Shown piece after piece: positions 4,807 through 12,362 of a stretch of DNA of 49,702 nt. The notes beneath the pieces were generated by a model that was not told the origin of the DNA, ran no database searches, and saw nothing but the letters and a program-made list of their open reading frames with translations. Origin of the DNA: Piscirickettsiaceae bacterium (GTDB lineage Bacteria; Pseudomonadota; Gammaproteobacteria; Nitrosococcales; Methylophagaceae); assembly GCA_024685995.1 (NCBI GenBank), contig JAIBDY010000013.1, positions 1 through 49,702 of the forward strand, read 5' to 3'. The position numbers were made by a program, and so were the translations under genes. Position 1 is the first letter of the stretch; every line of letters begins with the position of its first letter.

Positions 4807-4956
4807 TGTCCAAAACTCCAAAATAAATAAAGAACCATCATACACGTAATTATACGTATATAGTCAAATTAAAATATCGATAATTTTTTACTCTAGCATA
4901 AGAGTCTGTCAGACTTACTAGAGGATTATCCAGTTCAGCAAAGGTTTTGATGACAA
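4807..4956. promoter_or_regulatory. Divergent promoter region between ndh and the pterin/furan cofactor operon
   Basis: AT-rich 150-bp spacer. It contains the palindrome TATACGTATA at 4851-4860; its 8-bp core ATACGTAT also occurs in the two array promoters at 8674-8681 and 10667-10674. No clear -35/-10 pair was assigned. The regulatory meaning of the shared octamer is speculative. Confidence 0.4.
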
Positions 4957-8495: not shown

Positions 8496-8692
8496 AATAA
8501 CCCAGCGGAACAGTCGACAATTATGCAGGCAGAGATTGGGCCTGTTGATATAAAAAACGGCAAAAAACAGTGAAAAACCCACAAAAATACTAGGGTTAAA
8601 AGTCGCGCGTTTTCAATAGCTTAAATAAAGACACTATTTGCAAGGTTAAAAGCACGCACCAAAAGTAGTGTTAATACGTATAGTGACAAAGA
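8496..8692 (+). repeat. Diverged direct repeat of about 190 bp, copy 1
   Basis: This block is related to the one at 10490-10685 through three conserved islands in the same order and spacing: AATAACCCAGCGGAA, ACCCACAAAAATACTAGGG, and GTGTTAATACGTATAG. The intervening sequence has diverged. It represents a duplicated promoter, not a mobile element. Confidence 0.7.
8568..8692 (+). promoter_or_regulatory. Phased operator-like array, copy 1 (25-bp period)
   Basis: TTAA cores begin at 8596, 8621, 8646 and 8671, exactly 25 bp apart. They sit in the contexts GGGTTAAAA, AGCTTAAAT, AGGTTAAAA and GTGTTAATA; a weaker TGAA sits at 8571, one period earlier. The rest of each 25-mer varies, so this is not a simple tandem duplication. 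The last unit runs into TACGTATAG, which could contain a -10 element. The same spacing and core recur before the first GST-like gene. Confidence 0.65.
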
Positions 8693-8783
8693 AAGCCTCA
8701 ACAGTAAGTTTGTCCCCGGCTACAGAGATGGCACGCGGTGACCTAAGTAGACGTTTTTTACTTACTTTGTGGAGGAAGAGTTA

Positions 8784-9959
8784 ATGAGTAAACTAATCAT
8801 TAATTTAAGATATTTTTTGACGCCGATGCTGATTGTCGTCGCAATGCTAGGCATTTTATATGGTGGAATTTATTCGTGGTTAGGGGTAGCCATGTTTGCG
8901 TTAGCCATTGTCTTAGACTGGACAACCAGTCTATTACCAATGAAATTAGATCCTGCAGGTGTGGATGATAATGGCGAATTGAACGGGGTGCCATGGCTAT
9001 TAAATGCCATGATGTATATCCAATATCCTATTTTTGTTTTATTGCAGCTATCGTTAGTCTGGCGTGTTTCAGAATATGCCGCTGGCGTACCGATTGGGAC
9101 AATGGACGTCATGGGGATCACGATTCACAGTGGTATTTCCGGTGTCAACTTGATTGGTGCGGCCATTTCAAATGGTATGTTCATGGGACTGGGCATTATG
9201 TTTGGACATGAGCTTTCTCATACTAAAGGCGCTACGTTTATTTTGTCTCGCTGGATGATGGCGTTAAGCGGTATTGCCCATTTCTGTTATGCCCATGTCT
9301 ACAATCATCACCTTGAATTGGCGCATGAAGATGATCCTGCTACATGTCCGCGTGGACGTAATATCTACAAGCATTTCTTATTGTCTCATTTTGGACAATC
9401 TCGTTTTTTATACAAAATGGAAAAAGCACGTTTGGCTCGGATGGAGACGCCGTTTATTTCGGTTAAGAATCGTTGGTTGCGTGGTTATGCAATGAGCTTA
9501 CCAACGGTATTCTTGTTTTGGTACTTTGGTGGTTGGGCTGGTTTGGGCGTTATGGGGATTGCATGGACGATTTCTGCTTTTGAATTAGAAGTACTTAACT
9601 TCCTAGAGCATTACGGCTTAATCCGTGAAAAAGGCCAGCCGATCGAATATCGCCATTCATGGGATGTTGGTGAGTCGCCATTCACCCAAATTGGTTTTAT
9701 CGAAATTGGTCGTCAAGGCGATCATCACGACCGTGGCGAAACCCATTTTTGGGAATTAGAAGAGGTGGGCTCACCTGATACTGGTATTGGTTATTATGCG
9801 ATGTTTTCAATGTTGTTGATACCACCTGTGTGGGAAGCATTTATCAAACCGCATTTAGCAAAATGGGATCAAGAAATGGCATCCGAAGGTGAACGTGCGA
9901 TTGCGGAACGGATGAATAAGCAAGCGGGTTGGAACGGCATGCCGTCACTAACACAATAA
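8784..9959 (+). CDS. AlkB-like integral-membrane diiron hydroxylase with a variant third histidine box
   Basis: 391-residue membrane protein of the AlkB/XylM family, which hydroxylates alkyl or methyl groups using O2 and electrons from rubredoxin or a reductase. Several transmembrane helices surround the histidine boxes HELSH (142-146) and HVYNHH (171-176), and the AlkB-diagnostic NFLEHYGLIRE (272-282) and RHSWD (290-294). The last box, normally RHSDHH, reads RQGDHH (310-315), so its first histidine is Gln; an additional His321 follows nearby. The true start is the ATG at 8784, not the GTG at 8769, because the latter overlaps the ribosome site. No rubredoxin or reductase gene is nearby. The substrate cannot be named from sequence; linear alkane is only one possibility. 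Confidence 0.8.
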   Translation: MSKLIINLRYFLTPMLIVVAMLGILYGGIYSWLGVAMFALAIVLDWTTSLLPMKLDPAGVDDNGELNGVPWLLNAMMYIQYPIFVLLQLSLVWRVSEYAAGVPIGTMDVMGITIHSGISGVNLIGAAISNGMFMGLGIMFGHELSHTKGATFILSRWMMALSGIAHFCYAHVYNHHLELAHEDDPATCPRGRNIYKHFLLSHFGQSRFLYKMEKARLARMETPFISVKNRWLRGYAMSLPTVFLFWYFGGWAGLGVMGIAWTISAFELEVLNFLEHYGLIREKGQPIEYRHSWDVGESPFTQIGFIEIGRQGDHHDRGETHFWELEEVGSPDTGIGYYAMFSMLLIPPVWEAFIKPHLAKWDQEMASEGERAIAERMNKQAGWNGMPSLTQ

Positions 9960-10050
9960 CGATAAAATCAATAAGGTTACCAGGACTATACATGTCCGTG
10001 CATGAGGGCATTGATAGTTCTAGTGACACAAAATGTAAGAGGAGAAAGAG

Positions 10051-10254
10051 ATGAGTTCATTTAAAGGTTTTTTAGCGATTGTGGTGTGGACAAGCATCGT
10101 GGCTTTTGTGGCTACTGAGTTAAATATCGGCGCCCATCATACGGATCCAGTGTGGGCATTAGGAACAGCCATAGCTTTTTTAATTTGGCTTGTTAGTGCC
10201 GTTGCAATGTTTTTTGGCGTCGCAGGTGATGACCCATTCAAATGGGAAAAATAA
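10051..10254 (+). CDS. Small two-helix membrane protein downstream of the hydroxylase
   Basis: 67-residue protein I do not recognise. Two hydrophobic segments (about residues 5-24 and 33-56) are separated by a short loop with His-His (NIGAHHTDP), and the tail is polar (GDDPFKWEK). The ribosome site AGAGGAGAAAGAG is strong. It lies 91 bp after the AlkB-like gene with no terminator between, and a long hairpin follows, so the two form a transcription unit. It may be an accessory or stabilising subunit of the hydroxylase; that is inference from position only. Confidence 0.7.
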   Translation: MSSFKGFLAIVVWTSIVAFVATELNIGAHHTDPVWALGTAIAFLIWLVSAVAMFFGVAGDDPFKWEK

Positions 10255-10280
10255 TTATCAACACTTAGCAGGACATCAAG

Positions 10281-10320
10281 TTTTGATCTCAGGAGCCTGC
10301 GTGGTTTCCTGAGATCAAAA
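10281..10320. terminator. Long perfect hairpin after the hydroxylase unit
   Basis: A 14-bp perfect stem (TTTTGATCTCAGGA and its complement) has a 12-base loop. The stem base is A/T rich, but no separate T run follows the 3' arm, so termination would use the stem-encoded A/U pairs. It ends the two-gene hydroxylase transcript. Confidence 0.65.
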
Positions 10321-10489
10321 AGCTTTGAAGCAATACCATCTATATATAGAGTCAATCTCACGCCTAGCTAATCGTGGTTAGCGACCCAAATCCTCTCCTC
10401 CCGCCACCGACAGACTCTTATCCGACACACGTATCATAACGGCTGAATAATATCGGCAAGTTTTAGCTAGCTTATTGTTTGTAAACGAG

Positions 10490-10685
10490 AATAACCCAGC
10501 GGAATAGTCGAGATTATAAGAGTTGTAAAGCGTAAAAAATTAAATAAAAATGCCTGATCTTTCTTAATAACCCACAAAAATACTAGGGTTAAAAAGGCTT
10601 TCTATTCAAAGGGTTAAATAACACCGCAATTTTAATGGTTAAAAACACTTGCTAATGATGGTGTTAATACGTATAGGAGGATTTT
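10490..10685 (+). repeat. Diverged direct repeat of about 190 bp, copy 2
   Basis: Partner of the block at 8496-8692. Conserved islands are aligned within 1 bp over the first 100 bp, then exactly in phase through the array. Divergence between the islands suggests an old duplication with constrained protein-binding positions. Confidence 0.7.
10561..10685 (+). promoter_or_regulatory. Phased operator-like array, copy 2 (25-bp period)
   Basis: TTAA cores begin at 10564, 10589, 10614, 10639 and 10664: five positions, each 25 bp from the next. Their contexts are TTCTTAATA, GGGTTAAAA, GGGTTAAAT, TGGTTAAAA and GTGTTAATA. The stretches ACCCACAAAAATACTAGGG and GTGTTAATACGTATAG are identical to copy 1, and the offset from the upstream AATAACCCAGCGGAA block matches to 1 bp. 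This argues for a duplicated promoter under selection. Confidence 0.65.
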
Positions 10686-10867
10686 GGGCCTGAACGCTAA
10701 CGTGGTGACCTAGCTGAAGCGATTAACTGATATCGAAAACAATAAAACGCTATATCAACAACAGTTTACGAAGCTAAATGGGGAAAGGTTTGATCGATGT
10801 GTGAAGAGAGGAAAGCACTGAGATTTGATGGTTTTAATAACATAATGAATATAAAAAGAGGTTAAAT

Positions 10868-11545
10868 ATGCCATTTTTTAGAAAGAAAAAGAAAGAAGCC
10901 GTTCGTATGACGATGAGAGGTTTCCCGGGGGATGCAAACACATGTAAATGTTTGCTGATGGCTGCAGAGAAAAAAGTAAAACTCGATGTAGAGGTACTCG
11001 ATGTTTTAGGTGGAGCGTGCGATCAAGAAGCGTATCGTGCCATTTCACCATTTGGCAAATATCCGTATCTAGAGGAAGGGGATTTTTCAACCACGAGTGT
11101 GAATGCCGTTTTATCTTTTCTAGATGTACGAGGTGAAGGCAGTAGTTTATTGAATCCTAAAAAAGCCCAATTATTTGGCCTCCAAAACTATTGGGGCCAG
11201 GTGTCAAGAAAACTATGTGAACCCGCTGTTGATACCTTAGTTAAAGCAAGTATTTATGGTATTGAAGGTGGCGATTTAGATGCGGCAAGAGCGCAAGTCG
11301 CGACCGTATTAGATGAGCTTAATAGCTTTATCGACAACAAAGAATATCTGGTCGGAGAATATTCTTTTGCAGATGTCCACTGGACAGCGGTAGTACATAT
11401 GCTGACGTTGGCAGGAGATCAAGACATGATCACGTCTCGTAGCAACCTCAATGCTTGGTTTGGCAGAGTGAAAGCGCGCAGCAGTTATGCAGGCCTACCA
11501 TCATTAGATGACGTAAAAAACAAACAACTTAGATCAGTCGCCTGA
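10868..11545 (+). CDS. GST-like protein, type A, first module (possible membrane-associated)
   Basis: 225-residue protein with the two-domain glutathione-S-transferase plan: a thioredoxin-like N-terminal half ending in SPFGKYPYLEEG, and an all-helical C-terminal half with the YSFADVHWT segment. A motif GFPGDANTCKC (residues 18-28, Cys26 and Cys28) stands where GSTs have their catalytic Ser/Cys/Tyr loop, and GFPG..xTxK is kept in all four paralogues here. The N-terminus MPFFRKKKK is a hydrophobic tip followed by basic residues and may bind membrane phospholipids. AGAGG precedes the ATG. It is followed by the type B gene after 25 bp; the two products may form a heterodimer. Substrate unknown; conjugation or isomerisation of a reactive oxidation product is a reasonable guess. 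Confidence 0.75.
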   Translation: MPFFRKKKKEAVRMTMRGFPGDANTCKCLLMAAEKKVKLDVEVLDVLGGACDQEAYRAISPFGKYPYLEEGDFSTTSVNAVLSFLDVRGEGSSLLNPKKAQLFGLQNYWGQVSRKLCEPAVDTLVKASIYGIEGGDLDAARAQVATVLDELNSFIDNKEYLVGEYSFADVHWTAVVHMLTLAGDQDMITSRSNLNAWFGRVKARSSYAGLPSLDDVKNKQLRSVA

Positions 11546-11570
11546 TCATTACTAAACGAGGAGAAACAAA

Positions 11571-12362
11571 ATGGCTGATTTATTTCACTATGGTTCTGCA
11601 GCCAAAGCATTAGATGCAGAAGATCGTTACGGTAGTGACGGTGATATGAAAAAAACCCAATATGTCATGCAATTGCTCGGTTTTCCAGGCGATGTAGACA
11701 CGTTAAAATGTTTATTAACGGCAGCGGAAAAAGGGATTGAGGTCGAAAGCGGTATCTTGGATATGACAAAAGGTGAGCAGGACAGTGCTGATTACCGTGC
11801 TATTTCACCCTTTGGTCTAACCCCTGCATTAAAAGAAGCGTATTACACGATTGCGGGTGAACCGGGTGTCGCGGTCTTTATTGAAGGTCGTGGATTGGGT
11901 AATCGACTAGCACCACGTAATGCCGCTGTATTGGCAACAGAAATGTATTGGATGGAAGTGGGCAAAGATGAGGTGCAACCGCATGTCGAAGCATTAATGA
12001 TGCAAAAAGTCTGCGGTCAAATGGCGGATCCTGCTTTTGTGACCAATGATATTGCTGTTCAGTCTGCACGCGAAGCCTTAGCAGATCCATTAGAGGCATT
12101 TGACGAGCAATTATCATCAAATGAGTTTGTTGTGGGCGGATATTCTTATGCTGATATTCATTGGACTATCTATATTCACCTACTGACAGTGTTGGGTGAA
12201 GGTGTTTTGTTTGCCAAACACAGCCATATCAAAGCGTGGTTCGAACGAATCAAGGCGCATAAGAGTTTTTCGGGTCAAGATATTATTAGTTATGATTTCT
12301 TGCCAACATTGGATGAAATAAAAGCCAAGGTCTTGAAAGACGTTGAGTGTGGCGAATTCTAA
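11571..12362 (+). CDS. GST-like protein, type B, first module
   Basis: 263-residue paralogue of the preceding gene with an extra ~30-residue N-terminal segment (MADLFHYGSAAKAL...). It then shows GFPGDVDTLKC in the thioredoxin-like half, SPFGLTPALKEA, the loop FIEGRGLGNRLAP, the helical-domain segment YSYADIHWT, and a C-terminal SFSGQDIISYDFLPTLDEIKAK ending in CGEF. It lacks the polylysine tip of the type A partner. The ribosome site GAGGAG is strong. The pair is cotranscribed and closed by a clear terminator. Membership in the broad GST superfamily is visible; the specific class and catalytic residue are not. Confidence 0.75.
   Translation: MADLFHYGSAAKALDAEDRYGSDGDMKKTQYVMQLLGFPGDVDTLKCLLTAAEKGIEVESGILDMTKGEQDSADYRAISPFGLTPALKEAYYTIAGEPGVAVFIEGRGLGNRLAPRNAAVLATEMYWMEVGKDEVQPHVEALMMQKVCGQMADPAFVTNDIAVQSAREALADPLEAFDEQLSSNEFVVGGYSYADIHWTIYIHLLTVLGEGVLFAKHSHIKAWFERIKAHKSFSGQDIISYDFLPTLDEIKAKVLKDVECGEF

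Follow-up and report, generated by a model that had tools for sequence, protein, structure and literature searches.

The described systems that come closest to the locus analyzed here are FixL/FixJ with the rhizobial fixK promoter, StyS/StyR and TodS/TodT, and DevR/DosR. The fixK site of FixJ reads TAAGTAATTTCCCTTA, and the site classes recovered by SELEX with FixJ are GTAGTTTCCC and GTAMGTAG (available excerpt of PMC4999443). For StyR and TodT the operator is ATAAACN4GTTTAT, with K175, V176 and H179 as the recognition residues of StyR (available excerpt of PMC5874301); StyR binding to a site near -40 is cooperative with that to a second site further upstream, and IHF acts at an upstream element (excerpt of PMC2442086). 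DevR/DosR promoters have two or more adjacent boxes that are bound cooperatively, the proximal one overlapping the -35 (excerpt of PMC3029386).

Our locus resembles FixL/FixJ and the fixK promoter in its 16-bp operator of 6-4-6 architecture with a TAMGTA half at the proximal site, in the position of its sites upstream of the promoter, and in its candidate regulatory pair, a REC+GerE regulator with a kinase whose transmitter is FixL-like. It differs in its targets (hydroxylase and GST), in the acyl-CoA-dehydrogenase-like gene adjoining the pair, in having four sites at 25-bp steps and in an element about 170 bp upstream. As with StyS/StyR and TodS/TodT, a hydrocarbon oxygenase promoter would be under two-component control (here by a candidate system), with a site near -40, an upstream element and more than one site, presumably bound cooperatively. 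Unlike StyR/TodT, the candidate regulator aligns E/L/V, rather than K/V/H, with the residues named in the excerpt (FixJ has E/V/A), and the operator given there does not occur in the conserved alignment columns, as compared by eye. Several adjacent boxes and a candidate regulator of the NarL family recall DevR/DosR as excerpted, but the description in that part of PMC3029386 contains no constant 25-bp array of four units.

The window, i.e. the whole analyzed stretch of 49,702 bp, derives from a genome (G000) of 1.84 Mb in 56 contigs that is 82% complete. It carries gyrB, genes for DUF6513, DUF447 and a 4-HFC-P synthase, which we take to be of the tetrahydromethanopterin type, and, linked to each other, an AlkB/XylM-like hydroxylase, a 67-aa ORF and four GST-like genes (Table 1). 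The hydroxylase resembles the alkane monooxygenases 8f6t and 8sbb of the PDB and matches plasmid XylM at about 30%. The 67-aa ORF had no match in Pfam or NCBIfam, and for the first GST-like gene (10868-11545) all GST matches fell slightly under the Pfam curated cut-offs. A perfect 14-bp inverted repeat at 10281-10320, 3' of the 67-aa ORF, is a possible terminator separating the hydroxylase and GST transcripts. Among the 29 genomes of the genus, nine contain the hydroxylase family (G000, G002, G003, G010, G011, G012, G015, G016 and G018). Contig ends of G012, G010, G011 and G003 hold several hydroxylase fragments, as if the assemblies break at near-identical paralogs.

Table 1. Features of the hydroxylase and GST promoters and adjoining genes (positions in the window)
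Feature	Position	Strand	Basis
Upstream element AACCCAGCGGAACAGTCGA; AGCGGAA starts 171 bp before TACGTA	8499..8517	+	Copies in genus genomes
Array unit 3 (distal), CTAGGGTTAAAAGTCGCGCG, core TTAA 8596	8590..8609	+	Sequence; same register in relatives
Array unit 2, core TTAA 8621	8615..8634	+	Sequence; register in relatives
Array unit 1, GCAAGGTTAAAAGCACGCAC, core TTAA 8646	8640..8659	+	Sequence; register in relatives
Proximal operator, TACGTA-TTAA-CACTAC, dyad centre about -44 of predicted start	8665..8680	-	6-4-6 pattern, 23 sites
Predicted -10 hexamer TAAGTT, 30 bp after TACGTA start	8705..8710	+	Spacing rule; predicted start about 8717
AlkB/XylM-like membrane hydroxylase (FA_desaturase)	8784..9959	+	Pfam
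67-aa ORF, 3' of hydroxylase	10051..10254	+	Counterparts in L006, L007
GST-promoter upstream element; AGCGGAA starts 170 bp before TACGTA	10493..10511	+	Copies in genus genomes
GST array unit 3, core TTAA 10589	10583..10602	+	Sequence; register in relatives
GST array unit 2, core TTAA 10614	10608..10627	+	Sequence; register in relatives
GST array unit 1, core TTAA 10639	10633..10652	+	Sequence; register in relatives
GST proximal operator, TACGTA-TTAA-CACCAT	10658..10673	-	6-4-6 pattern, 23 sites
Predicted -10 hexamer TAACGT	10698..10703	+	Spacing rule; predicted start about 10710
Two GST-like genes, 10868-11545 and 11571-12362	10868..12362	+	Pfam

An earlier, sequence-only reading of the window had reported TTAA cores at 8596, 8621, 8646 and 8671 in the hydroxylase promoter and at 10564, 10589, 10614, 10639 and 10664 in the GST promoter, and all steps are indeed exactly 25 bp. 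The window contains 314 TTAA, and over lags of 8-79 runs of at least three occur at lag 25 and, as its harmonic, at lag 50, but at no other. None of 200 dinucleotide shuffles of the window produced four cores in a row at lag 25; for any lag of 10-60, runs of at least four appeared in two of these and a run of five in none. When each intergenic region was shuffled 2000 times, runs of at least three were obtained in 30 and 80 cases and runs of at least four never.

The regular phase extends to relatives: nine promoters in 7 of the 29 congeneric genomes keep the 25-bp register. Eight of these align over 115 columns with zero internal gaps, although L017 is shortened, its start being adapter-like (beyond position 2820 of L017 the contig concerned, G002:C25, apparently ends in Illumina transposase adapter sequence). 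In a longer MAFFT alignment single-base gaps fall within the array part of L012, and L007_gst, with its decayed array, is shifted. A search of the 29 genus genomes with R1, a sequence-only model of the 115-bp region, gave nine strong matches (E <= 1.1e-15) in seven genomes, the next best having E = 2.4e-3. Eight of the nine are R1's own seeds, and the single new one is the ninth array promoter, L045, a GST promoter of G011 on a contig in which no hydroxylase was found. In the window's genome R1 recovered two strong matches and a third at E = 0.158; at E < 0.1 the array occurs nowhere else there beyond the hydroxylase and GST promoters. In a tenth promoter, that of the GST of L007 (G010), the array has decayed (R1 E = 0.01).

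The cores are kept while the remainder of the unit diverges, as the sequence-only reading had described for the window: pairwise identity is 0.86 in the GGTTAAA columns versus 0.52 in the rest. These values, the register held in nine promoters and the failure of shuffles to give runs of four at lag 25 make it hardly credible that the period arose by chance or that the arrays all stem from a single recent copying of this region, even though both window promoters, L005 and L015/L006_gst are near-identical in the distal unit and in the flank to its left, which by itself makes a whole-region duplication plausible.

The TTAA sites are not all alike. In the nine arrays 22 of 26 upstream units have an exact TTAA (the misses are one in L005, one in L006 and two in L012), whereas the promoter-proximal TTAA is exact in just three of nine promoters, namely both window promoters and L006_hyd, and elsewhere reads TTTC, ATAA, CTAA or TTTA. 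The core at 10564, the fifth of the GST promoter, is restricted to the window: it is part of a AATAACCC motif, where L006 and L045 read GTAATAACCC. The idea that every TTAA is the centre of an equivalent operator was therefore rejected, since the proximal one is the unconserved spacer of a distinct TACGTA dyad and 10564 falls outside the array. What stands of the original claim is a multi-site regulatory array common to the hydroxylase and GST promoters, with its phase kept in relatives.

The last core of the array occupies the 4-bp spacer between the halves of an inverted repeat that is FixJ-like in its 6-4-6 layout. Read outward from TACGTA, the majority pattern of 23 chosen sites is TACGTA-NNAN-YACNWS, i.e. 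TACGTA-N4-YACNWS. The set comprises 14 hydroxylase/GST promoters, four globin/acyl-CoA-dehydrogenase-like sites outside the genus and five ACAD/MBL intergenic sites within it, these five being oriented by inspection. All of the 23 except L012 have TACGTA intact, and the match to the second half-site peaks at a spacer of 4, with a mean of 3.22 of 6 versus 1.88 in 176 control readings; the runner-up, a spacer of 7, gives 2.22 versus 1.66. Eleven paralog promoters lie outside this set; paralog promoters have TACGTA and the hexamer described below, with CTAGGG, where it occurs, 5 bp off, so that those with CTAGGG look 6-5-6.

In all 25 hydroxylase, GST and paralog promoters counted, a TANNNT hexamer, the predicted -10, has its first base 29 or 30 bp past that of TACGTA, which puts the dyad centre near -44, and the same two-offset test at offsets outside 28-30 succeeds in at most one of the 25. 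The count leaves out L081-L096 (16 loci of other families) and the genus paralogs L019, L032 and L033, all without usable TACGTA; L086 has a TACGTA that fails. TACGTATAG was dropped as a candidate -10 box once TANNNT had been seen at this distance in 25 of 25; it occurs at 5 places in the window's genome versus 22 for the reversed control, with the array at two only, the hydroxylase and GST promoters. Beyond the promoters from which it was drawn, the hexamer rule holds less well. At 29 other gene starts, three of them at approximate positions (L187 twice, L184 once), it is passed by 5 of 10 VWA and 2 of 13 acyl-CoA-dehydrogenase-like genes, by the Bac_globin genes (Pfam) of L185 and L186, by a matching site in L184, although no globin ORF is listed there, by one GST gene of G015 and by one further hydroxylase paralog; L187, at an approximate start position, has no TACGTA. 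Of the TACGTA tallied, 33 pass and 56 fail upstream of ORFs, and 11 pass and 102 fail elsewhere, in a tally that includes the rule-suggesting promoters and reads each site in both orientations. Given the hexamer at 29/30 bp and the outcome at the other gene starts, TACGTA appears to be an activator site and not a -10, and the promoters presumably have no working -35. The proximal dyad and the hexamer spacing are well supported by these comparisons. A near copy of the operator, CACGTA-ATTA-TACGTA, lies at 4843-4858 of the window between divergent Pyr_redox and flavoprotein genes, with no TANNNT at 29/30 bp; TACGTA also occurs in the matching gap of L134, L140 and L145.

Further upstream, AACCNAGCGGAAYAGTCGA lies 169-171 bp before TACGTA in all nine promoters with intact upstream sequence, which include the decayed GST promoter of L007 and leave out the truncated L017. 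Copies of this conserved 19-bp element with no mismatch occur at nine places in 6 of the 29 genus genomes, all before hydroxylase or GST promoters, and elsewhere in the 29 genomes there are only three matches, with two mismatches. Another reading takes the array as the seat of a repressor or of a wrapping, nucleoid-type protein, with the promoter shut off until an activator dislodges that protein. The units are A-rich, their cores span 75 bp and, since 25 bp is around 2.4 helical turns, the sites rotate round the helix, all of which would suit such a protein; the fixed register with both the proximal operator and the element around 170 bp away nevertheless suggests a specific complex, which makes silencing quite improbable, and we infer activation instead.

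The sequence-only reading knew of no named regulator with this pattern. In our analysis the gene context, the distribution and the architecture of the proximal site all suit a FixJ-type response regulator, and a FixL/FixJ-like two-component system may control both the hydroxylase and the GST promoter. The candidate regulator combines PF00072 and PF00196 (REC+GerE) and has FixJ as its closest solved structure (E 2.5e-47); the neighbouring gene encodes a kinase with PAS domains, whose transmitter aligns to FixL chimeras (E 5.2e-47). Regulator (E <= 8.2e-78) and kinase were found in the same 8 of 29 genomes (G003, G010, G011, G012, G015, G016, G018 and G022), and thus in seven of the nine hydroxylase genomes of the genus (Fisher p 1.7e-4, uncorrected for kinship) and in G022, which lacks a hydroxylase match. 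The pair does not need the array, as it occurs in G015 and G018 together with hydroxylase paralogs but with no array. Neither protein was found in the array genomes G000 (the window's, 82% complete) and G002 (86%). The G016 and G010 copies of the pair are located several kb past gyrB and the adjoining gene. The window's contig stops just beyond that gene, so a gap in the assembly may explain why the pair was not found in G000.

Around the paralogs, a PAS kinase and a FixJ-like regulator recur together with genes of three further kinds: VWA, CbbQ/NorQ-like and acyl-CoA-dehydrogenase-like. In genomes from outside the genus (G407, G409, G410, G286 and G161), homologs of kinase and regulator sit on the contig that carries the hydroxylase. 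Of the genomes that gave L008-L011, three of four (G407, G409, G410) have their best regulator match on that contig, and G408 has it on a contig other than that of L009. No acyl-CoA-dehydrogenase-like ORF is listed for G410; in G286 and G161 the hydroxylase, whose promoter has no passing TACGTA, adjoins the regulator, the kinase and the dehydrogenase-like gene. Regulator identities outside the genus are 34-48%, which does not prove orthology, and FixJ-like regulators are common (13 of 13 genomes searched have a match at E 1e-15). The link between the array promoters and the pair is circumstantial but consistent. Clusters of dehydrogenase-like gene, PAS kinase and FixJ-type regulator (L185:6165-9996, L188:5223-9530, L134:4477-8199) were observed near hydroxylase genes in several gammaproteobacterial families.

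Other regulators fitted less well. The distribution of a MerR (MlrA/CarH-like) regulator beside the paralogs L025 and L036 does not fit the array genomes: a search covering 26 of the 29 genomes of the genus gave no match in G003 and just a weak one in G016, and it gave strong homologs (53% identity and more) in genomes that have no hydroxylase match, such as G001, G004, G006, G007 and G024. The MerR gene lies near hydroxylase paralogs at L025:367-1332, L036:359-1279 and L143:11660-13971, in the last case adjoined by a DNA photolyase gene (Pfam), and inverted ACTTATACAAA/TTTGTATAA-type sites run into TACGTA near these MerR-linked paralogs. The HxlR regulator is tied to a 25-bp repeat in Bacillus; nothing was found on HxlR with 25-bp sites in the open-licence full-text literature, and HxlR was rejected as the L010 query had no match at E 0.001 in the array genomes G000, G011 and G012.

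The three upstream units lack the FixJ-type 6-4-6 architecture: they have no TACGTA, and their half-site-like matches, CTARGG and ACTTAC, are 8 bp apart versus 4 at the proximal site. Because of this another protein may bind them, leaving the FixJ-type protein at the proximal operator only. In line with two regulators, the hydroxylase promoters of L008-L011 (other gammaproteobacteria) keep the proximal operator without an array visible by eye in 330 bp upstream, genus paralog promoters with TACGTA and hexamer likewise show no array by eye, and R1 has no strong match in G015 or G018. Yet CTARGG, the left half of the unit (reverse CCYTAG), resembles by eye both the proximal second half and the CCCTTA of FixJ, and the array runs into the proximal operator at the same step in nine promoters. 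We regard two regulators as the less probable arrangement; that one and the same regulator binds all units is our reasoned guess.

On balance we lean towards a FixJ-type dimer at the proximal operator, three dimers on the upstream units and a separate factor at AACCNAGCGGAAYAGTCGA, which would together activate hydroxylase and GST. Both promoters would need an activator. A phosphorylated dimer of the response regulator would bind TACGTA-N4-YACNWS near -44 and recruit RNA polymerase to the TANNNT -10 hexamer, three more dimers would be stacked at 25-bp steps on the GGTTAAA units further upstream, and the element near -212 would be bound by a factor of its own, giving a long activation complex of fixed geometry that would switch both transcripts on together. 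In an unlikely extension of this scheme, the four dimers would form a screw round the DNA that closes onto the element around 170 bp upstream, an enhanceosome-like complex of a NarL/FixJ-family regulator, in which the first and fourth dimers would share a DNA face since three steps, or 75 bp, make around seven turns.

The cluster of AlkB/XylM-like hydroxylase and GST occurs in the window's genus, in lucinid symbionts and in other gammaproteobacteria. The analysis provides this cluster with a defined operator, TACGTA-N4-YACNWS, with a predicted -10 and with a two-component system as candidate regulator. A fixed 25-bp stacking, off the helical repeat, would depart from the two- or three-site promoters that the excerpted sources describe for this regulator family.
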